Shown: piece after piece, positions 2,686 to 9,626 of the stretch
Position numbering within the stretch: position 1 is the first letter of the stretch
How the letters are laid out: each line of letters starts with the position of its first letter
From: Rhodoblastus acidophilus
GTDB taxonomy: Bacteria; Pseudomonadota; Alphaproteobacteria; Rhizobiales; Beijerinckiaceae
Assembly (NCBI RefSeq): GCF_025961575.1
Contig: NZ_JAOQNX010000042.1
Coordinates: forward strand, 1-36,421
Direction: 5' to 3'
Length of the DNA stretch: 36,421 bases
Translations under genes and position numbers: made by a program
The notes under the pieces: generated by a model
Database searches by the model: none
Seen by the model: only the letters and a program-made list of their open reading frames with translations
What the model was told of the DNA's origin: nothing

Positions 2686-3441
2686 TCAGTTTGGAACCGG
2701 GCTCAGCGGCGGGCCGACAGTCAAGGAAATGCAGACGCGCGCCGGCCGGTTATATCCGACCATCATCACTGAACCTGTCTGCGGCCAGGCCGTCGTCAGA
2801 TATAGCTTGCCGCCGTAGCCCTCGGCTAAATCTTGCGTGGCCTTGTCCAGCGAAGTTTCGAAGCCGCCGACCTTGCCGCCCCTCATCGACATCGCGCCAC
2901 GGGGCGAGACATCGGACATCGACGCGCCCAGCGACGAGAGCGACTTGAACCCGGGCGAAGCCGCGTTGGCGGCAAGCGTCAAATTTTGCAGGTCGGCCGC
3001 CGTCCGGAGGGGGGCTTGGTCAGCAGATAGGTGACGCCGTGGTTCCAAAATTTGAGGGGAAAGAGCCCGGTTCGGCTCGCATCGCCCATGGCGGCCTCGC
3101 CCAGGAAGGAGTTCTGCATCAACGACACTTCCTTCGCCGATTTGAATAGGAAGAGTCTTGTCAGCAGCGAAGCTTCCGGTCCCGCTTTTTCGAGCGCGCG
3201 CTGGTCCCTTTCGGCAAACGTGACTACGCCGGTTCGGCGGCGCCGGACGTGACCGCCGCCTGCGCGGCGCTGGAGTCGTCCTTCGACAGAGGAGAAACGG
3301 TCACGCCGATTTCAGCGAGCGCCTTCGACGCGCGAAGCGACTTGAGAAAGGCGTCCTCCAGATAGGACTGGGGAACCGCGCTGCGGACCTCACCCGCGAG
3401 AACGTCAGGCGACAAACACAGAAGCACGAGGGACGAAGCAT
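2686..3441 (-). pseudogene. Broken TRAP-transporter substrate-binding protein (DctP-like)
   Basis: Three adjacent minus-strand frames join into one protein-like sequence of about 250 residues. Frame one runs from near 3441 to 3224 (signal-like LVLLCLSPDVLA, then GEVRSAVPQSYLEDAFLKSL). Frame two runs from about 3246 to 3010 (GVVTFAERDQRALEKAG, then FWNHGVTYLLTKPP). Frame three runs from about 3020 to 2686 (ADLQNLTLAANAASPGFKSL, SLGASMSDVSPRGA, GGKVGGFETSL). The last part follows the DctP pattern of a component-lowering 'adl-gl-ira' strand, a shortened 'lGa-p' segment and the 'G-vdG-e' loop. Two internal frameshifts and a damaged start make it non-functional. The family assignment comes from pattern only. 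No TRAP permease genes are next to it. Confidence 0.5.
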
Positions 3442-3527
3442 GGCGCCAACCCTCTCATCTGCCGCCGGGCTCTGCTCAAACAACGCCCGGTCTGCTCGAT
3501 GCGTTCAAACGCGCTTGGGCGCGCAGC

Positions 3528-4013
3528 CTAAGCCGACGTGGGCTTGAACGTCAGGGCGACGCCGTTCATGCAATGGCGCAAGCCTGTCGGCTTCGGCCCG
3601 TCGTCGAAGACATGGCCGAGATGCCCCCCGCACCGCGCACAATGCACGGCGGTGCGCACCATGCCAAAGCTCCGGTCTTGCTCGGTCCCCACGGCCTTGT
3701 CCAACGGCGCCCAGAAACTCGGCCAGCCCGTGCCGCTGTCGAATTTTGTCTCGGACGAGAACAGATCGCGCCCGCAGCCGGCGCAGGCGAACAGGCCGCG
3801 GCGCTTTTCATGCAGCAACGGACTGGTGAAGGCGCGCTCCGTGCCCTCGTGGCGCAGAACGTCATATTGCTCCGGCGTCAGGCGGCGCCGCCATTCCGCG
3901 TCGTCGAGCGTGAGTTCGAACCCGCCGCCCGGCGCGGCGCGCGTGTTGCGGACAAAGCCCAATGCGGCAAAGCTGGCTAATGCGCTTCGGACGAGCGTGC
4001 GTCTGGTGGTCAT
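3528..4013 (-). CDS. msrB: Peptide-methionine (R)-S-oxide reductase, Tat-exported
   Basis: This 161-residue MsrB reduces the R epimer of methionine sulfoxide in proteins. The first 27 residues look like a Tat signal (TTRRTLVRSALASFAALGF, then an Ala-rich cleavage region), which places the enzyme in the periplasm, whereas most bacterial MsrB proteins are cytosolic. The zinc pairs C76-x2-C79 and C124-x2-C127 are present, as are the GTGWPSFW motif and the catalytic Cys147 in RHCMNG. The start at 4013 is supported by GGGAG about 8 bases upstream. A promoter of the same type as that of sigF lies at 4053-4081. The divergent neighbour is a Met-rich secreted peptide, and the next genes encode a YedY-type oxidoreductase and its membrane partner, so the setting is periplasmic methionine repair. 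Confidence 0.95.
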   Translation of the reverse strand: MTTRRTLVRSALASFAALGFVRNTRAAPGGGFELTLDDAEWRRRLTPEQYDVLRHEGTERAFTSPLLHEKRRGLFACAGCGRDLFSSETKFDSGTGWPSFWAPLDKAVGTEQDRSFGMVRTAVHCARCGGHLGHVFDDGPKPTGLRHCMNGVALTFKPTSA

Positions 4014-4052
4014 GAAAAATACTCCCGGCGCCGTGCGATCGACGCAAAGCCC

Positions 4053-4081
4053 GTTACGCGCCGAGGCGCCGGCTTGTTACA
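4053..4081 (-). promoter_or_regulatory. Candidate SigF-type ECF promoter of msrB
   Basis: Read on the minus strand, TGTAAC (4081-4076) is followed by a 17-base spacer and CGTAAC (4058-4053), 40 bases before the msrB start codon. The same -35 word and CGTA -10 core occur at 4126-4153 and 8082-8109, in front of the repeat-peptide gene and sigF. The pattern resembles the GTAAC-containing promoters of ECF factors. That SigF recognises it is inferred. Confidence 0.65.
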
Positions 4082-4125
4082 GCTGACGCACTCGCCCACG
4101 GACACATCGATTTCCGTCGCCGCTC

Positions 4126-4153
4126 TGTAACAAGTCAAATCTCCTTCCGTATC
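4126..4153 (+). promoter_or_regulatory. Candidate SigF-type ECF promoter of the mrpX-cytochrome-yedY operon
   Basis: TGTAAC (4126-4131), a 16-base spacer and CGTATC (4148-4153) face rightward. This promoter and the msrB promoter share the extended -35 CTGTAACAAG and lie back to back. Transcription from here would leave a leader of roughly 130 bases before the repeat-peptide ATG at 4294, with no obvious gene inside it. Confidence 0.65.
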
Positions 4154-4293
4154 TGATAGCGACAAGCGCGCGGCGCCAGCGCGCAGGTCCATCCCCGCTT
4201 CGGCGACCTCGCTCTTTGAGGTCCCAAGCCGCCTTCGACATGTCGGAGGCGGAACAGACGCGGCCATGCCGCAACATCCAGAAGGAGCACACC

Positions 4294-4527
4294 ATGACCG
4301 CCAAGACCTTCAAACATCACGTCGCCGCGGGCGTTGTATTTGCGCTCGCGTCCGCTTTCGCCGCGGGCCCGTCCTTCGCCGCCGACTCGATGAAGGGCGA
4401 CGCCATGCAGTCCGACGGAATGAAAAGTGACAAGGCGACTGGCGCTGCGATGAAAGGCGACAAGATGCAGGGCGACGCGATGAAGTCCGACAAGATGCAC
4501 GGCGACTCCATGAAGGGCGACAAGTAA
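4294..4527 (+). CDS. mrpX: Methionine-rich periplasmic repeat peptide (penta-MxKDx / MrpX-like)
   Basis: The product is 77 residues. A Sec signal peptide (about 1-29, ending FAAGPSFAA) is followed by a mature part built almost wholly from five-residue units of the form M-x-x-D-x: MKGDA, MQSDG, MKSDK, MKGDK, MQGDA, MKSDK, MHGDS, MKGDK. Eight Met residues fall in about 47 positions. This matches the small 'pentapeptide MXKDX repeat' family. In Azospira suillum a Met-rich periplasmic peptide (MrpX) serves as a sacrificial hypochlorite scavenger that is re-reduced by a YedY-type enzyme. The same partners follow here, so that role is inferred. The ATG at 4294 is chosen for the GAAGGAG site 6-12 bases upstream and for the signal peptide. 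Upstream in-frame starts lack both. Confidence 0.85.
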   Translation: MTAKTFKHHVAAGVVFALASAFAAGPSFAADSMKGDAMQSDGMKSDKATGAAMKGDKMQGDAMKSDKMHGDSMKGDK

Positions 4528-4537
4528 GCCGCTGTCG

Positions 4538-4572
4538 GGACGTCCGCCGCGTCTTTCTTGCGGCGGACGTCC
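4538..4572 (+). terminator. Perfect 13-bp hairpin between mrpX and the cytochrome gene
   Basis: GGACGTCCGCCGC (4538-4550) and GCGGCGGACGTCC (4560-4572) are exact reverse complements around a 9-base loop. No T-run follows, and the next gene starts 28 bases later. It is more likely a partial terminator or an RNA-stability element that keeps the short peptide message abundant than a full stop. Confidence 0.6.
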
Positions 4573-4599
4573 AATTCATCTCTCGCGAGGACGCCCGTG

Positions 4600-5475
4600 A
4601 TGACGCAGAGCCAGCCGCTGACCAAAGCCCACGCGAAAATCTTCGTTCACCGGCATGCACTGGTCACGCGCATTACGCACTGGATCAACGTCCTATGCAT
4701 TCTGATCCTGTTGCCGAGCGGATTGCAGATCCTCATGGCCCATCCCGCCTTTTACTGGGGCCCGTACGGCTCGGATCGCGACCGGCCCGCCCTCGAAATC
4801 GGCGCGCAGGAAACCGACGACAACGCGCTGAAGGGTTTTTTGCGCATTGGAGGCAAGACGCTGGACACGACTGGTTATTTGGGCGCGGTCAAGGACGCGG
4901 ACGGCGAATGGCATGACCGCGCGCTTCCCTATTGGGCGACTCTGCCGTCTTACCGCTCACTTGCGCTCGGCCGGCGCTGGCACCTCTTTTTCGCCTGGCT
5001 CTTCGTAGCCAATCTCGCCGTCTATTGTCTCGTCGGCCTCGCCAACGGCCATTTGCGCCGCGATCTCCTGCCGACGCGCAAACAGTTAAATCCGCGCGCG
5101 TTGCTCGCAGACGTCGTCCATCATGTAAAATTGCAGTTCCCGAGAGGCGAGGCGGCGCGCCATTACAATCCACTGCAAAAACTCGCCTATCTCGGCGTCG
5201 TCGCCGTGCTGCTGCCGACGGTGATCCTCACAGGGCTGACCATGTCGCCAGGAATGGACGCCATCCTGCCCTGGCTGATCGATCTGTTCGGCGGGCGCCA
5301 GTCGGCGCGCACGATCCATTTCATCGCGGCCAGCCTGATCGTCCTGTTCATCCTGGTCCATCTGGTCATGGTGGTTCTCGCCGGTCCGATCAACGAGATC
5401 CGCTCCATGATCACCGGAAAGCTCAAAATAGAAGTGGAGGCTGGCCATGAGCCGGATCGTCATTCCGCGCCGTAA
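4600..5475 (+). CDS. Cytochrome b561-type membrane subunit (YedZ1-like partner of the molybdoenzyme)
   Basis: This 291-residue membrane protein belongs to the thiosulfate-reductase/Ni-hydrogenase type cytochrome b family. Four to five hydrophobic helices are visible, with likely haem-ligand histidines in VHRHALVTRITHWINV near the N-terminus, in RRWHLFFAWLF in the middle, and in IHFIAASLIVLFILVHLVMVV near the C-terminus. Its likely job is to pass quinol electrons to the periplasmic molybdoenzyme encoded next, whose start overlaps this gene by 29 bases. The ATG at 4600 has GAGGA 10-14 bases upstream. The upstream frame from 4558 would include the hairpin stem and is not favoured. It differs from MsrQ (YedZ) of E. 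coli in size and motif layout and fits the YedZ1-type arrangement better. Confidence 0.85.
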   Translation: MTQSQPLTKAHAKIFVHRHALVTRITHWINVLCILILLPSGLQILMAHPAFYWGPYGSDRDRPALEIGAQETDDNALKGFLRIGGKTLDTTGYLGAVKDADGEWHDRALPYWATLPSYRSLALGRRWHLFFAWLFVANLAVYCLVGLANGHLRRDLLPTRKQLNPRALLADVVHHVKLQFPRGEAARHYNPLQKLAYLGVVAVLLPTVILTGLTMSPGMDAILPWLIDLFGGRQSARTIHFIAASLIVLFILVHLVMVVLAGPINEIRSMITGKLKIEVEAGHEPDRHSAP

Positions 5476-6223
5476 GTTCCTGCGCTTCAGCGCGCTCGGC
5501 CTCGGCGCGACGGCGCTGGGTTTTAGCCGCCCGGCCGACGCATGGACCTTCGAGGAGCTGATCGCCTCGGCGCAAGGCCTGACTTATCGCGCCCAGCGCG
5601 CCCTCGGAGGCCGTCATTCCATGGCGCGCGAGTTCTCAGCCGCCGACCTGTCTCCGGATTTCAAAGTCAATGGAACCGAGCGGCCCGACACGCCCGAATA
5701 CGAGGCGCTGCTCGCCGATCAGTTTGCGAGCTGGAAGCTGCGTGTGGACGGGCTGGTCGCCACGCCGCTCGACCTGTCGCTTGCGGACCTGCGCGCCCTG
5801 CCGCAACGCGCGCAGATTACGCGGCACGATTGCGTGGAAGGCTGGAGCGCCATCGGCCAATGGCAGGGGCCGCAACTGTCGGAAGTTCTTTCGCGCGCGA
5901 ACCCGCTTCCGGCCGCCCGCTTCGCCGTCTTCCATTGCGCAGATTTCCTGGAGCATGCAGCGGATGGAACCGGCCAATATTATGAGAGCATCGATCTGAT
6001 CGACGCCTTCCACCCGCAGACCATACTCGCGCACAGCCTCAACGGCGCGCCGCTTTCCGTCGGCCACGGCGCGCCTGTGCGCCTGCGCGTCGAGCGCCAA
6101 CTCGGCTACAAGCACGCCAAATATGTGATGCGCATCGAACTGGTCGAGCGGCTCGACACGCTGGGTCGCGGCAAGGGCGGCTATTGGCCCGACCGCGGCT
6201 ACGAATGGTACGCGGGCATCTGA
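5447..6223 (+). CDS. yedY1: YedY/MsrP-like molybdopterin-dependent oxidoreductase, Tat-exported
   Basis: The 258-residue protein starts with a clear Tat signal (IPRRKFLRFSALGLGATALG). It carries the sulfite-oxidase type molybdopterin fold, with the cofactor-binding cysteine Cys129 in RHDCVEGWSAIGQW and a later HGAPVRLRVERQLGYK segment typical of the family. Relatives reduce methionine sulfoxide in periplasmic proteins (MsrP) or act in hypochlorite defence (YedY1). The translational overlap with the cytochrome b gene and the upstream Met-rich peptide favour this role over sulfite oxidation. No dimerisation (Mo-co dimer) domain is present, which also argues against sulfite oxidase. The ATG at 5447 sits in GGAGGCTGGCCATG, a strong site. 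Confidence 0.88.
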   Translation: MSRIVIPRRKFLRFSALGLGATALGFSRPADAWTFEELIASAQGLTYRAQRALGGRHSMAREFSAADLSPDFKVNGTERPDTPEYEALLADQFASWKLRVDGLVATPLDLSLADLRALPQRAQITRHDCVEGWSAIGQWQGPQLSEVLSRANPLPAARFAVFHCADFLEHAADGTGQYYESIDLIDAFHPQTILAHSLNGAPLSVGHGAPVRLRVERQLGYKHAKYVMRIELVERLDTLGRGKGGYWPDRGYEWYAGI

Positions 6224-6281
6224 CGTGCAAAGCGGGCGGGACGGCAACGTTCCACAGATTGAAAACGGTCTTCAGGACCAG

Positions 6282-6847
6282 ATGCGTTTGACGTCTTCTG
6301 GAAAGCTGTACAACGACCCCACGCCTGAGCTGATCCAAGCGCGAGCGAACGCCGTCATTCTGACGAACGAATACAATGCCTCCATTGGACGCGACGCCGC
6401 CTGCCGCGAGAAGATCCTCCTCAAATTGCTGAAGAGTGTCGGGCCGGGGACATTTTTCGAGCCAACCTTTCGCTGCGAATTCGGGTTCAACATTGTCACG
6501 GGCAGAGACTTCTATGCCAATTTCGACTGCGTCATTCTCGATGGCGCCACCGTCGAAATCGGCGACAGCGTGTTGTTCGGCCCACGGGTTGGCATATACA
6601 CGTCAAATCACGCCATTGACGCGATGGAGCGAGCCGCCGTTGGGCCGAGCCCGTCCGCATCGGCCACCGTGTTTGGGTCGGTGGAGGTGTGAACATCAAC
6701 CAGGGCGTCACGATTGGGGACGAGAGCATCATCGGTTCCGGAAGCGTCGTCACGCGCGACATTCCCGCCGGCCTCATTGCGGCCGGCGCACCCGCGCGTG
6801 TCATAAGGCCGATCACCGAAAAAGACCGAAAAGGATTTCGTGCTTAG
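6282..6847 (+). pseudogene. Maa/NodL-type sugar O-acetyltransferase with a frameshift
   Basis: The first part (6282 to about 6640) encodes the maltose/galactoside acetyltransferase N-terminus and the start of the left-handed beta-helix: GKLYNDPTPELIQAR, then GTFFEPTFRCEFGFNI, then the TSNHAID catalytic-His region. The homologous continuation (PVRIGHRVWVGGGVNINQ, then IGSGSVVTRDIPAG, then AAGAPARVIR) lies in another frame and ends with TAG at 6845-6847. A one-base indel in the GC-rich stretch near 6628-6650 explains this. The joined protein would have the usual length of about 188 residues. It is either a recent pseudogene or a sequencing error. It sits at the end of the yedY operon but has no obvious link with it. 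Confidence 0.75.
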
Positions 6848-6866
6848 GACCACGCGATCGGCAGCC

Positions 6867-7505
6867 TCACCAACGCAACAGGCGCCCGCCGGCAAACCAC
6901 CCGGCCACCACGACGATCGCGGTCGCGATCATGTACCAAACCGCGAGGAACAGAGGCGAATCGTCAGGGCAGTTCATCGCGTAGAGCGTCGCCGAAAGGC
7001 CGGCGGCAGCGAGCGCCGCAGCGGCGCCTGCGCGGCGGCCATCGGTGGGCGCGCCGTGGCGGAGCGTCGCGAACAGGCCGACGAGCGGCGCCATCGACAT
7101 CAACGGGATCAGCGTCAGGCAATGGAGGGCGTTATGGCCGATCATCCGCGTCTCCCAGAGACCGGATGGCGTGACCGCCATCTCGACAAGACTGGCGAGG
7201 ATGACGAGCGCCGGGCCAAGCAAGACCGCCTTTGCAGCACGACCCGGATTGGCGCCCGGTCGCGCCAAACGCCAGGCGAGAACCAGCCCGCTCGCCGCCA
7301 TGGTCAGGCTGAAGACGAATTTGAACAGAAAACGTGGCTGGTCGAGCGAAATGAAGAACGTGTCGCGCAAGCCGACGAAGGCGAAAAAGAACGCGATAGA
7401 GGCCGCAAACCCGAGGCCAAGATCGAGCGCCAGGGTCCGCGACAGGGGCGCGGCCTTGGTTTCATTGTCCGCCGTCAGCGCAGCTATGAGGTCTTCGGTC
7501 TTCAA
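6867..7505 (-). CDS. nrsF: NrsF-type transmembrane anti-sigma factor (DUF1109)
   Basis: The 212-residue protein has six predicted membrane helices and a short cytoplasmic N-terminus (KTEDLIAALTADNE) that matches the DUF1109 start. Two conserved cysteines lie in HNALHCLTLIPLMSMAPL and MNCPDDSPLFLAVWY; the second motif is the family hallmark. In Caulobacter and Azospira, NrsF holds SigF at the membrane and releases it on chromate/cadmium or reactive-chlorine stress, and these cysteines are proposed to be part of the sensor. The gene starts with TTG at 7505 in a TTGA overlap with the sigF stop, with AGGA 9 bases upstream, so it is translationally coupled to sigF. Confidence 0.9.
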   Translation of the reverse strand: MKTEDLIAALTADNETKAAPLSRTLALDLGLGFAASIAFFFAFVGLRDTFFISLDQPRFLFKFVFSLTMAASGLVLAWRLARPGANPGRAAKAVLLGPALVILASLVEMAVTPSGLWETRMIGHNALHCLTLIPLMSMAPLVGLFATLRHGAPTDGRRAGAAAALAAAGLSATLYAMNCPDDSPLFLAVWYMIATAIVVVAGWFAGGRLLRW

Positions 7506-8071
7506 CTTGACTTCCTGTAGAGTTCGGCGAGGGATTTCAGTCCGCGATGCACGGAGACGCGCAGCGCGCCTTCCTTGACGCCCAGCGCCGCAGCCGCATC
7601 GCGCAGACTCTGGCCGCGGATCGACACGGCCTCGATCGCCTCGCGCTGCTTCGGACTCAGTTGATCCAGGAGGCGCAGGGCTTCCTGCCGGTCCAATTCG
7701 CGCTCAAGAATTTCTGTCTCGTCGGGCGCAGCGAGAATGTCCTCGAAGGGCGCGATATCCGTCTCGACGCGGCGGCCCCGCCTGCGCGCGGCGTCGATCA
7801 CCTTGTTGCGCGCGATCGCCGCGAGCCAAGGCGCCAGCGGCTGCGTGGGATCCCAAGTGTGGCGCTTGAGGTGGACGGCGAGCAGGGTTTCCTGAATCGC
7901 GTCTTCCACTTCGCTCGCCGACATTCCCGTTCGCGCGCAGGCGCGCAAGGCTATTTTGCGCAGGAAGGGCGCGAGCGCCGTCAGCAGGCGTTTGTACGCC
8001 TGGTTATCGCCCGCAAGGGCTGCGCGCATGTCCGCGCTCCATTCGAGATCCCGCGCTTTCCAGTCCGACAT
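7502..8071 (-). CDS. sigF: ECF sigma factor, SigF type
   Basis: This 189-residue ECF sigma factor has region 2 at about residues 22-95 (ASEVEDAIQETLLAVH and PWLAAIARNKVIDAAR) and region 4 at about 125-180 (LDQLSPKQREAIEAV, then GQSLRDAAAALGVKEGALR). The ATG at 8071 is preferred over a TTG at 8092, because the upstream TTG would lie inside the promoter. The -10 element at 8082-8087 leaves only a few leader bases. The gene is followed by its own membrane anti-sigma gene, and a promoter of the same type as those of msrB and mrpX precedes it. This implies autoregulation and a small stress regulon. Confidence 0.93.
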   Translation of the reverse strand: MSDWKARDLEWSADMRAALAGDNQAYKRLLTALAPFLRKIALRACARTGMSASEVEDAIQETLLAVHLKRHTWDPTQPLAPWLAAIARNKVIDAARRRGRRVETDIAPFEDILAAPDETEILERELDRQEALRLLDQLSPKQREAIEAVSIRGQSLRDAAAALGVKEGALRVSVHRGLKSLAELYRKSS

Positions 8072-8081
8072 TCCAGCCCTT

Positions 8082-8109
8082 TTTACGGCCAACGCTTTCG
8101 ATTGTTACA
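8082..8109 (-). promoter_or_regulatory. Candidate autoregulatory SigF-type promoter
   Basis: On the minus strand, TGTAAC (8109-8104) and CGTAAA (8087-8082) are separated by exactly 16 bases, the same spacing as at 4126-4153. The sigF ATG is only 10 bases past the -10 element, so the message would be nearly leaderless. Confidence 0.65.
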
Positions 8110-8284: not shown

Positions 8285-8506
8285 ATGAAGTCGCTGCTCA
8301 CCATCGCCGCCCTCGCCGCCGCCGCTTTCGCTTCCTCCGGCGCCAATGCCGATACGCTCGATCGTCACCATCGCGCTGGCGTTGGAATCGTGCGCCATAC
8401 GTCCGCGCCCATGCCTGCCCCCACGAGCTTCCAAAGCCTTTATCAGGGCGGCAACGTATCCAACGATTGCGAGCAACGGGTCTTCGGATTTTGCAACGTT
8501 CGCTGA
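8285..8506 (+). CDS. Small secreted protein of unknown function
   Basis: The 73-residue product has a clear Sec signal peptide (KSLLTIAALAAAAFASSGANA), then a mature part of about 51 residues with RHHRAGVGIVRH, a Met/Pro/Ser stretch and two C-terminal cysteines (DCEQRVFGFC). The cysteines may form a disulfide in the periplasm. AGAGGA lies 8-13 bases before the ATG at 8285. No family is recognised. It diverges from sigF, but no copy of the shared ECF promoter was seen in front of it. Confidence 0.6.
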   Translation: MKSLLTIAALAAAAFASSGANADTLDRHHRAGVGIVRHTSAPMPAPTSFQSLYQGGNVSNDCEQRVFGFCNVR

Positions 8507-8596: not shown

Positions 8597-9577
8597 CTAT
8601 CTCTCAACCATGGTCTGGATGCGGCGCCACCCCCCTGCGGCGCGTCCGATCACGATGGCCGACTTGGTTGGCGCATTCGCCGCGGCCAGAGTCGGATTTC
8701 CTCCCCAATTGATTTGTGCCGCTTCCTTCACCAGCGCCGCGACTGCAGGCGAATGCGGCCGACCGCGGACTGTCACCAAATTGACCTCACGCCACAACTC
8801 GGGATCGACAAGGGGACGCGTCACGACGCCCTGGTTGGAGGCGCAATTCTCGGGCATGAAGCCAAAGCCCTGGCCAGACGCAATCATGGCCAAAACCCAG
8901 TCGTCGCGCTCGCTGCGGAACACGACCTCGCATTTGACTCCCCTTTCGACGAAAAACCCGCCCAAATAGCCTCTGAACTCGCACTTCGCCCGGTTGATGT
9001 AAGGCTCGCCATCGAGATCGACGACGCGGATGGCGTTTCGCGTTGCGAGTTTATGCTCGCGAGGCAGGACGATCATCATCCGCTCGCAGAACAGCGGGCG
9101 AAACAGAAGCTTTTCGGAGGCCTCATCATTGGGCAGGCAGTAGATGGCGACATCGAGTTCGCCCTCGATGAGTTTCTCGTTGAGTTCACGCGCGCTCGCG
9201 TCCACCAGCTCCACCTCGATGCCGGGATGGCGGGCCCGGATGGCGCCGACGAGACCGACCAACTCCGTCGGCGCGACCGTGCACATGAGGCCGAGTTTGA
9301 GATGCAGCTTCTGCAATGTCTTGAATTCGCGAGCGACGCGTTTGGCGATATCTGACTGGACCAGTGCATCCTGGAGATGAGGCCGCACGGATCGGCCGAG
9401 TTCGGTCAGATGCGTGTTGGCGCGCTCGCGGTGGAACAGGGGGCCGCCCATTTCCTCTTCCAGCAGCTTGATGGCGCGCGTCAGCGAAGGTTGCGCCACA
9501 TGGCATTTTTCCGCCGCGCGCGTGAAATTCAGCTCTTCTGCGACCGCGAGGAAATAGCGGATTTGATGCATTTCCAT
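8597..9577 (-). CDS. LysR-family transcriptional regulator
   Basis: The 326-residue protein has the LysR winged helix-turn-helix at residues 1-65 (QIRYFLAVAEELNFTRAAEK, then CHVAQPSLTRAIKLLEEEMG, PLFHRER) and a type-2 periplasmic-binding fold effector domain from about 90 onward. The effector region has an acidic LVDASARELNEKLIEGELDV segment and a long FCERMMIVLP strand. The start at 9577 (MEMHQIRYF) gives the normal family length. An upstream ATG at 9613 would add 12 unusual residues. LysR regulators usually face their target gene, but upstream there is only about 240 bases of non-coding DNA and then the end of a convergent-type mobile operon, so the target is unknown and may have been displaced. 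Confidence 0.92.
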   Translation of the reverse strand: MEMHQIRYFLAVAEELNFTRAAEKCHVAQPSLTRAIKLLEEEMGGPLFHRERANTHLTELGRSVRPHLQDALVQSDIAKRVAREFKTLQKLHLKLGLMCTVAPTELVGLVGAIRARHPGIEVELVDASARELNEKLIEGELDVAIYCLPNDEASEKLLFRPLFCERMMIVLPREHKLATRNAIRVVDLDGEPYINRAKCEFRGYLGGFFVERGVKCEVVFRSERDDWVLAMIASGQGFGFMPENCASNQGVVTRPLVDPELWREVNLVTVRGRPHSPAVAALVKEAAQINWGGNPTLAAANAPTKSAIVIGRAAGGWRRIQTMVER

Positions 9578-9605
9578 GGGCGTCCCCGACGAAGCCGAGA
9601 GGGCG

Positions 9606-9626
9606 CCGGCCACAAGTTTTGGCCGG
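9606..9626. repeat. 7-bp inverted repeat upstream of the LysR gene
   Basis: CCGGCCA (9606-9612) and TGGCCGG (9620-9626) are exact inverted copies with a 7-base centre, about 30-50 bases upstream of the LysR start codon. The position suits an autoregulatory site or a leader hairpin. Confidence 0.35.

Follow-up and report, generated by a model that had tools for sequence, protein, structure and literature searches.

A predicted SigF/NrsF locus of Rhodoblastus acidophilus sets an exported-type MsrB beside a YedZ-YedY-peptide arm of methionine repair

A Candidate Envelope-Oxidant Locus With Two Repair Arms

The DNA analyzed here, 36,421 nucleotides of Rhodoblastus acidophilus contig NZ_JAOQNX010000042.1 (hereafter the window), carries within 4.6 kb an extracytoplasmic function (ECF) sigma factor/NrsF anti-sigma factor pair, a peptide built of MxxDx repeats, a b561-type cytochrome, a YedY-type molybdoenzyme with a twin-arginine translocation (Tat) signal, and a methionine sulfoxide reductase, MsrB, that also has a Tat signal (Table 1). 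We think it likely that these genes form an ECF16 (SigF/NrsF) locus directed against envelope oxidants, in which a quinol-fed arm (YedZ, YedY, and the peptide) would operate beside a thiol-fed MsrB arm running on borrowed electrons. Judged from its sequence, the locus is a new arrangement of known parts, and it is real and well formed. An earlier sequence-only reading of this DNA had named the genes, and family searches together with the open reading frame (ORF) table confirm its list in identity, order, and coordinates. To that list the analysis adds a promoter element common to three transcription units, gene remnants behind msrB, and a gene in two frames between yedY and nrsF (Table 1). From 3528 to 8092, msrB lies on the minus strand, the peptide, cytochrome, and molybdoenzyme genes follow on the plus strand, and nrsF and sigF are again on the minus strand.

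A Shared Promoter Element

The pattern GTAAC-N15-18-CGTA occurs exactly three times in the window, upstream of msrB, mrpX (the peptide gene), and sigF, with the msrB and peptide-operon elements standing back to back in divergent orientation. First-order Markov simulations of the window (300 runs) contained on average 0.013 matches to TGTAAC-N15-17-CGTA, and none had more than 1. Across the 4.9-Mb genome TGTAACN{15,17}CGTA has five sites, three of them at the locus (reversed-pattern control, 24); five sites placed at random would put three or more into this 4.6-kb stretch, named beforehand, with a probability of 8e-9. A second form, TGTAACAA-N13-16-CG, has six distinct genome sites in seven rows, with three at the locus (reversed control, 55). 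Behind the other sites, two of the CGTA form and three of the TGTAACAA form, ORF tables read without family searches revealed no plausible envelope-repair gene. The regulon may be larger, because forms such as TGTAACC...CGAA lie outside the genome-wide scan.

The element resembles published ECF16 promoters, which are given as GTAAC(g/a)-N14-15-(c/t)CG(t/a) (PMC3420878), GTAACC-N16-CGAA (PMC3511200), and (T/C)GTAAC-N17-CGAA (PMC8315932), yet its −10 part is CGTA where the last two have CGAA. Since one element stands before all three units, we predict that msrB shares its sigma factor with the peptide operon and belongs to the SigF regulon. The view of the locus as a self-contained module is thus upheld by a promoter set of its own, an ECF16-type element before each of three transcription units, and the same element appears to place msrB within the module.

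The association of exported MsrB with this promoter recurs among other bacteria. MsrBs were sorted by a heuristic (a hydrophobic stretch plus paired arginines, without a signal predictor), with six labels changed by hand (L095, L152, and L153 to exported; L161, L243, and L257 to no signal); 40 further MsrBs came from ranks below the top 30 of a match listing and are a subset of those ranks. Of the 101 exported MsrBs, 37, among them that of the window, have GTAAC-N15-17-CG(A/T) upstream (reversed control, 4; the motif density in the loci predicts about 1.4), as against 2 of the 49 without a signal (reversed control, 4), a difference with a Fisher p of 6.7e-6 that is not corrected for kinship. 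Two signal-less MsrBs, L255 and L256, have an ECF16-type motif close upstream, probably by chance, because the reversed control is equally frequent in that group. The sequence-only reading had taken MsrB for an addition peculiar to this locus, which does not hold, as exported MsrBs with an ECF16-type promoter recur in the relatives sampled, partly together with a DsbD-like conduit and MsrA.

Table 1. Positions and evidence for the features of the locus and its broken neighbours.
Feature	Position	Strand	Basis
msrB, Tat-type signal	3528..4013	(-)	PF01641 167.2 bits, TIGR00357 172.4 bits
Predicted msrB promoter, ECF16-type, TGTAAC-N17-CGTA	4055..4081	(-)	pattern scan
Predicted peptide-operon promoter, ECF16-type, TGTAAC-N16-CGTA	4126..4151	(+)	pattern scan
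MrpX-like secreted Met-rich MxxDx repeat peptide	4294..4527	(+)	TIGR02953 54.3 bits, cut-off 41
YedZ1-like b561-type membrane cytochrome	4600..5475	(+)	PF01292 90.7 bits, over cut-off
YedY1/MsrP-like molybdoenzyme, sulfite oxidase family	5447..6223	(+)	PF00174 113.4 bits, over cut-off
NrsF/DUF1109 anti-sigma factor	6867..7505	(-)	PF06532 173.8 bits, over cut-off
ECF sigma factor, SigF type	7502..8092	(-)	family search
Predicted sigF-nrsF promoter, ECF16-type, TGTAAC-N16-CGTA (autoregulation)	8084..8109	(-)	pattern scan
DctP/DUF900-hydrolase gene remnants, several frames, behind msrB	2689..3454	(-)	comparison with congeners G150, G154
Mac-type (maltose-acetyltransferase-like) gene in two frames, between yedY and nrsF	6225..6848	(+)	remnant or frame error

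Linkage of msrB With nrsF in Relatives

The sequence-only reading had proposed a search for how often msrB sits in sigF-nrsF loci. In an order-level sample of 150 genomes PF06532 matched in 48 (E up to 0.001), and the flanks of all 47 other over-cut-off NrsF places were compared over up to 9 kb per side where contigs allowed; msrB was near none of them, and yedZ with yedY near two (L010, L046). An own-family sample of 36 genomes, the window's included, had NrsF in 26, at 28 places, of which 20 were compared (the rest being the window itself, two already covered, and five others), and none of these 20 stretches had msrB. From the MsrB side, nrsF lies nearby in 2 of 80 named MsrB loci (L068, L089), the best 80 of at least 579 confirmed candidates, which are biased toward exported forms because the search patterns include the signal peptide, and in 0 of 20 MsrB loci of relatives. 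Taken together (0 of 67 other NrsF and 2 of 100 other MsrB neighbourhoods), the counts mean that direct linkage is rare, while association at the promoter level is not.

So rare a linkage would be expected if msrB merely adjoined the module by chance and served general envelope repair under other control. We find this scarcely credible, given that the shared promoter is concentrated at the locus genome-wide and that the motif is kept before msrB in both closest congeners, G150 and G154, where nrsF is unlinked. There msrB stands with its motif beside mrpX-yedZ (the G154 contig stops inside yedZ, so that the view excludes its yedY). In G150 a 7-kb cluster holds msrB, mrpX-yedZ-yedY, and a secreted thioredoxin with CcdA, and the motif also precedes the thioredoxin-CcdA pair. 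The Cypionkella locus L089 joins nrsF-sigF, msrB, dsbD, msrA, a Met-rich peptide, and yedZ-yedY; its yedZ-yedY and its peptide, which has 20 Met and fails the MxxD/E repeat pattern, lie within 8 kb of the exported msrB. A betaproteobacterial contig from a metagenome-assembled genome of Comamonas (L079) holds, within 4.8 kb, yedZ-yedY, an exported msrB, a Met-rich peptide, and a dsbD-like gene. These two arrangements suggest that the arms have been joined more than once.

Protein Features and History of the Exported MsrB

All export signals at the locus were called by eye, without a signal predictor. The MsrB N-terminus (MTTRRTLVRSALASFAALGF...TRA) is compatible with a twin-arginine signal, and the protein has only five cysteines, four of zinc type and the catalytic Cys148, with no candidate resolving cysteine. 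Exactly five core cysteines are also found in 97 of the 101 exported MsrBs (two have four, two have six), aligned with four zinc-type columns and the catalytic column. Six or more are found in 43 of the 49 MsrBs without a signal, a group whose extra cysteines fall mostly in the column of window residue 64 (49%) or 79 (27%). The pattern suggests that exported MsrB is a single-cysteine form, from which a single-cysteine cycle with direct reduction by a thioredoxin-fold partner would follow.

The other products are consistent with a SigF/NrsF module. The MrpX-like peptide has 77 residues, 9 Met, and a Sec-type N-terminus, and its family model is titled 'pentapeptide MXKDX repeat'. The molybdoenzyme has a twin-arginine signal and an RHDC site, and scores 91.6 bits against the MsrP equivalog model NF003767, under the cut-off of 207; in the cytochrome PF01292 alone matched, with no MsrQ-type domain at E up to 0.01. 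By these model tests the pair does not appear to be MsrP/MsrQ proper of the Escherichia coli type. NrsF retains Cys129 and Cys179, and scores 79.5 bits against NCBIfam's stricter NrsF model (cut-off 300). The start of sigF is more likely the ATG at 8071, because the drawn start at 8092 lies beside the gene's own −10 element (8084-8087).

A phylogenetic tree of MsrBs was built from 150 rows and 127 columns; of its 147 inner branches 52 are open, and its bootstrap is not settled. In it the window protein and those of G154 and G150 fall together within a starred set of 17 rows, all exported forms. The tree does not show the exported MsrBs as a single clade, because the label needs eight changes on it. 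Among the 16 other rows of the starred set, matched by genome, 12 have msrA and 8 a DsbD-like gene adjoining msrB. The simplest history is one in which the window's lineage lost both the conduit and msrA. Against G150 and G154 msrB has a ratio of nonsynonymous to synonymous substitution (dN/dS) of 0.08-0.17, that is, purifying selection. The window yedY is 82% identical to that of G158, 80% to that of G151, and 73% to that of G150; being closer to G158 and G151 than to G150, it indicates that the two arms may have separate histories. A strict within-genus swap of msrA-dsbD for mrpX-yedZY was considered and rejected, since in G151, G153, and G158 a close yedY occurs alongside an msrB that has msrA with it.

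Electron Supply for the Exported MsrB

In many relatives a DsbD-like conduit is encoded beside msrB. A DsbD-like gene adjoins msrB on the same strand in 17 of the 80 named loci and 8 of the 20 relatives, and an MsrA-signature frame does so in 27 and 13. Among the named loci 13 have both neighbours and 49 have neither; among the relatives these counts are 7 and 6. The order msrB-dsbD/thioredoxin-msrA appears in 20 of the 100 MsrB neighbourhoods. In one such locus (L179) the conduit protein joins redoxin and Thioredoxin_10 domains to a membrane part of DsbD type, whose 23.2 bits fall short of the Pfam cut-off (27.1).

Searches of the window's genome (80 contigs, rated 100% complete) with PF02683, the G150 CcdA, the G150 thioredoxin, and PF08534 found no dedicated MsrB conduit. 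As to a DsbD-like fusion or regulated CcdA, PF02683 and the G150 CcdA matched only a CcdA at C4:67743-68438, no separate PF13386 search being made, and no match to the promoter pattern lies near that gene. For the G150 secreted thioredoxin the closest match is a signal-less thioredoxin with 28% identity, and no exported MsrA partner was found, the single PF01625 match (contig C15) being unlinked and without a hydrophobic N-terminus. PF08534 gave eight matches (L290-L297). Two of them, L292 and L293, combine a membrane anchor with a CxxC site; L290 lacks CxxC but starts with a hydrophobic stretch, no clear anchor is seen in L291, L294, L295, or L296, and the longest frame of L297 is probably not the gene. 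Because no dedicated conduit was found, we infer a borrowed source, for which the most reasonable donors would be the C4 CcdA together with one of the anchored CxxC proteins, the TlpA-like one on C5 or the CcmG-like one on C11.

The same searches could be taken to mean that msrB is a vestige of an msrB-dsbD-msrA operon, transcribed but idle without electrons while the YedZ-YedY-peptide arm works. The msrA and DsbD-like genes of its starred-clade relatives fit this view, as do the failure to find a DsbD-like fusion or a close relative of the regulated thioredoxin-CcdA pair, the broken gene behind msrB, and the report that human MsrB3 works poorly with thioredoxin once its resolving cysteines are gone (PMC6488974). 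Such idleness nevertheless seems unlikely to us, if by no means negligible, for in the conduit-poor group msrB is under purifying selection and its promoter is kept in 3 of 3 members, and the genome does encode a general CcdA as well as thioredoxin-fold proteins that carry an anchor and a CxxC site.

Comparison With Known Systems

In Azospira suillum the SigF/NrsF-MrpX-YedY1-YedZ1 module reportedly places a peptide and a YedY-type reductase under ECF16 control. The sequence-only reading had likened the locus to that module, a likeness that the sequences support. Shared are the ECF/NrsF pair, the sacrificial Met-rich peptide, the YedY-type molybdoenzyme, and the b-type cytochrome, and the window appears to have every part by which such a module would be recognized, its promoters included. 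Its exported MsrB with the same promoter sets it apart, the Azospira genome lying outside the comparison. A response of the Azospira module to reactive chlorine is cited in PMC8315932.

The description of the locus as an alphaproteobacterial version of that module stands, but related alphaproteobacterial systems have already been published in Brucella (PMC8315932) and Bradyrhizobium (PMC3420878). The Brucella melitensis genes bcrXQP and bcrS-abcS are induced by hypochlorous acid (HOCl), and share with the window an ECF16 sigma/anti-sigma pair, an operon of MXKDX peptide and methionine sulfoxide reductase, ECF16 promoters, and autoregulation (PMC8315932). The systems differ in that the term msrB is absent from the text of that paper and in that BcrQP is homologous to MsrQP (PMC8315932), whereas the window cytochrome is b561-type. 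The EcfF/OsrA system of Bradyrhizobium japonicum places three methionine sulfoxide reductases under ECF16, of which Blr7043, an MsrA or MsrB, is predicted to be exported (PMC3420878). Its promoter is similar, and Cys129 and Cys179 of the window NrsF match the positions reported for OsrA, but its targets are scattered over several places in the genome (PMC3420878). That regulon includes a DsbD-core/thioredoxin pair, Bll1027/Bll1026, proposed as an electron path (PMC3420878). How an exported MsrB obtains its electrons, which the sequence-only reading had left as an open question, had therefore been addressed, by a proposed path whose regulated pair was not found in the window's genome.

A third comparison is with Haemophilus influenzae, whose MsrAB with Trx and CcdA is under the ECF sigma factor RpoE2 and is needed for hypochlorite resistance (PMC9404787). 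An ECF-controlled periplasmic thiol reductase tied to hypochlorite is common to both, but the Haemophilus enzyme is a fused MsrAB with its conduit in the operon, and the accessible text notes no repeat peptide or YedYZ (PMC9404787). Closest in protein are the msrB-dsbD(CcdA-thioredoxin)-msrA operons of relatives (e.g., L175, L176, L177, L179, L067, and L089), which have a homologous Tat-signal, five-cysteine MsrB and an ECF16-type promoter; there the conduit and MsrA adjoin msrB, and both are absent at the window locus. As an ECF16-controlled exported thiol reductase with its own conduit, the window MsrB thus appears to have the signal, catalytic cysteine, and promoter, and to lack a co-regulated conduit and an exported MsrA.

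Our literature search covered mostly journals outside subscription. For periplasmic or exported MsrB only work on Streptococcus surfaced in the texts available, and the combination of MsrB, periplasmic, twin-arginine, methionine sulfoxide reductase, and alphaproteobacteria returned nothing. Neither two arms at one divergent promoter beside the sensor nor the single-cysteine trend was encountered in the portions seen, and on bufferin/copper and DipZ-Msr only unrelated work was found.

Proposed Mechanism

By analogy with the OsrA and BcrS work, an oxidant would act on NrsF, probably through periplasmic Cys179, and free SigF, which, to judge from the promoter elements, would transcribe the sigF-nrsF and mrpX-yedZ-yedY operons and, divergently from the latter, msrB. 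Reactive chlorine or oxygen species would be absorbed on methionines of MrpX and of envelope proteins. The b561 cytochrome would then pass electrons from the quinol pool to the molybdoenzyme, which would reduce both sulfoxide epimers. In parallel, MsrB, exported by Tat, would act on the R epimer of envelope proteins and perhaps of MrpX. Its cycle would use a single cysteine, with a thioredoxin-fold protein directly reducing the sulfenic acid. The electrons would come from the general CcdA through an anchored CxxC thioredoxin-fold protein. The sequence-only reading had assigned MsrB to the R epimer as such, which would not be required: MsrP is reported to be non-stereospecific (PMC7402097), so that MsrB would instead add another electron source.

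Several observations weigh against this two-arm proposal. The msrB-nrsF linkage is rare, 64 of the 101 exported MsrBs have no motif, the genome searches yielded no dedicated conduit, and genes are broken in the locus behind both msrB and yedY. The poor direct reduction by thioredoxin of human MsrB3 without resolving cysteines speaks against an easy borrowed supply, although a mechanism without a resolving cysteine has been proposed for MsrB2 (PMC6488974). In addition, the Caulobacter SigF, which is of this sigma type, responds to chromium and to cadmium, and a YedY gene is among its targets (PMC3511200).

Met-rich peptides can bind copper. With the Caulobacter response in mind, the locus might serve metal stress, SigF/NrsF answering chromium, cadmium, and copper, and the peptide acting mainly as a metal ligand kept reduced by the reductases. 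We regard this as rather improbable. The other Caulobacter SigF targets, DUF692 and DUF2282, match 0 of the 10 window proteins scanned (the rest of the genome lies outside the scan), and the homologous Brucella operon is induced by HOCl, as that of Azospira, by citation, responds to reactive chlorine (PMC8315932).

A more speculative scheme, and a long shot in our estimation, dispenses with the thiol supply altogether. Sulfenylated human MsrB3 without resolving cysteines is reported to be an R-specific methionine oxidase (PMC6488974), and the MsrP of R. sphaeroides to be less efficient on the S epimer (PMC7402097). MsrB might likewise move the oxygen of an R-sulfoxide, as sulfenic acid, from a client protein to a methionine of MrpX, from which YedZ-YedY would remove it at the expense of quinol electrons. 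MsrB may then need no outside electrons, and the peptide may be a relay between two enzymes, more than a sink; the scheme may apply to genomes with an exported single-cysteine MsrB but without its thiol conduit.

Neighbouring Genes

The maltose-acetyltransferase-like gene is probably not part of the system. The gene broken behind msrB here, which couples a DctP-type solute-binding part to a DUF900 hydrolase, is open between msrB and mrpX in G150 and G154. Upstream of sigF, window 8285-8506 (+) encodes a small secreted-looking protein of no known family, whose sole other match in 168 loci is L172 194-472 (+) in the congener G150, before the thioredoxin-CcdA pair. A LysR-type regulator gene lies at 8597-9613 (-); the only other LysR above 120 bits in the 168 loci is at L089 7919-8866 (+) (150 bits), inside the linked Cypionkella module, and the LysR-type gene may encode a second regulator of such modules.

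Significance

Known periplasmic methionine repair takes two forms, quinol-fed molybdoenzymes and MsrA/MsrB fed by thiols across the membrane. In the window locus one sensor appears to govern both, from a single divergent promoter region. What is unusual is that the two known kinds of repair enzyme adjoin one another, with no dedicated source of electrons found for MsrB. One can therefore ask of this locus whether its arms back each other up, divide the epimers between them, or serve the sacrificial peptide jointly, and how a thiol enzyme of the periplasm can work when it has no conduit of its own.

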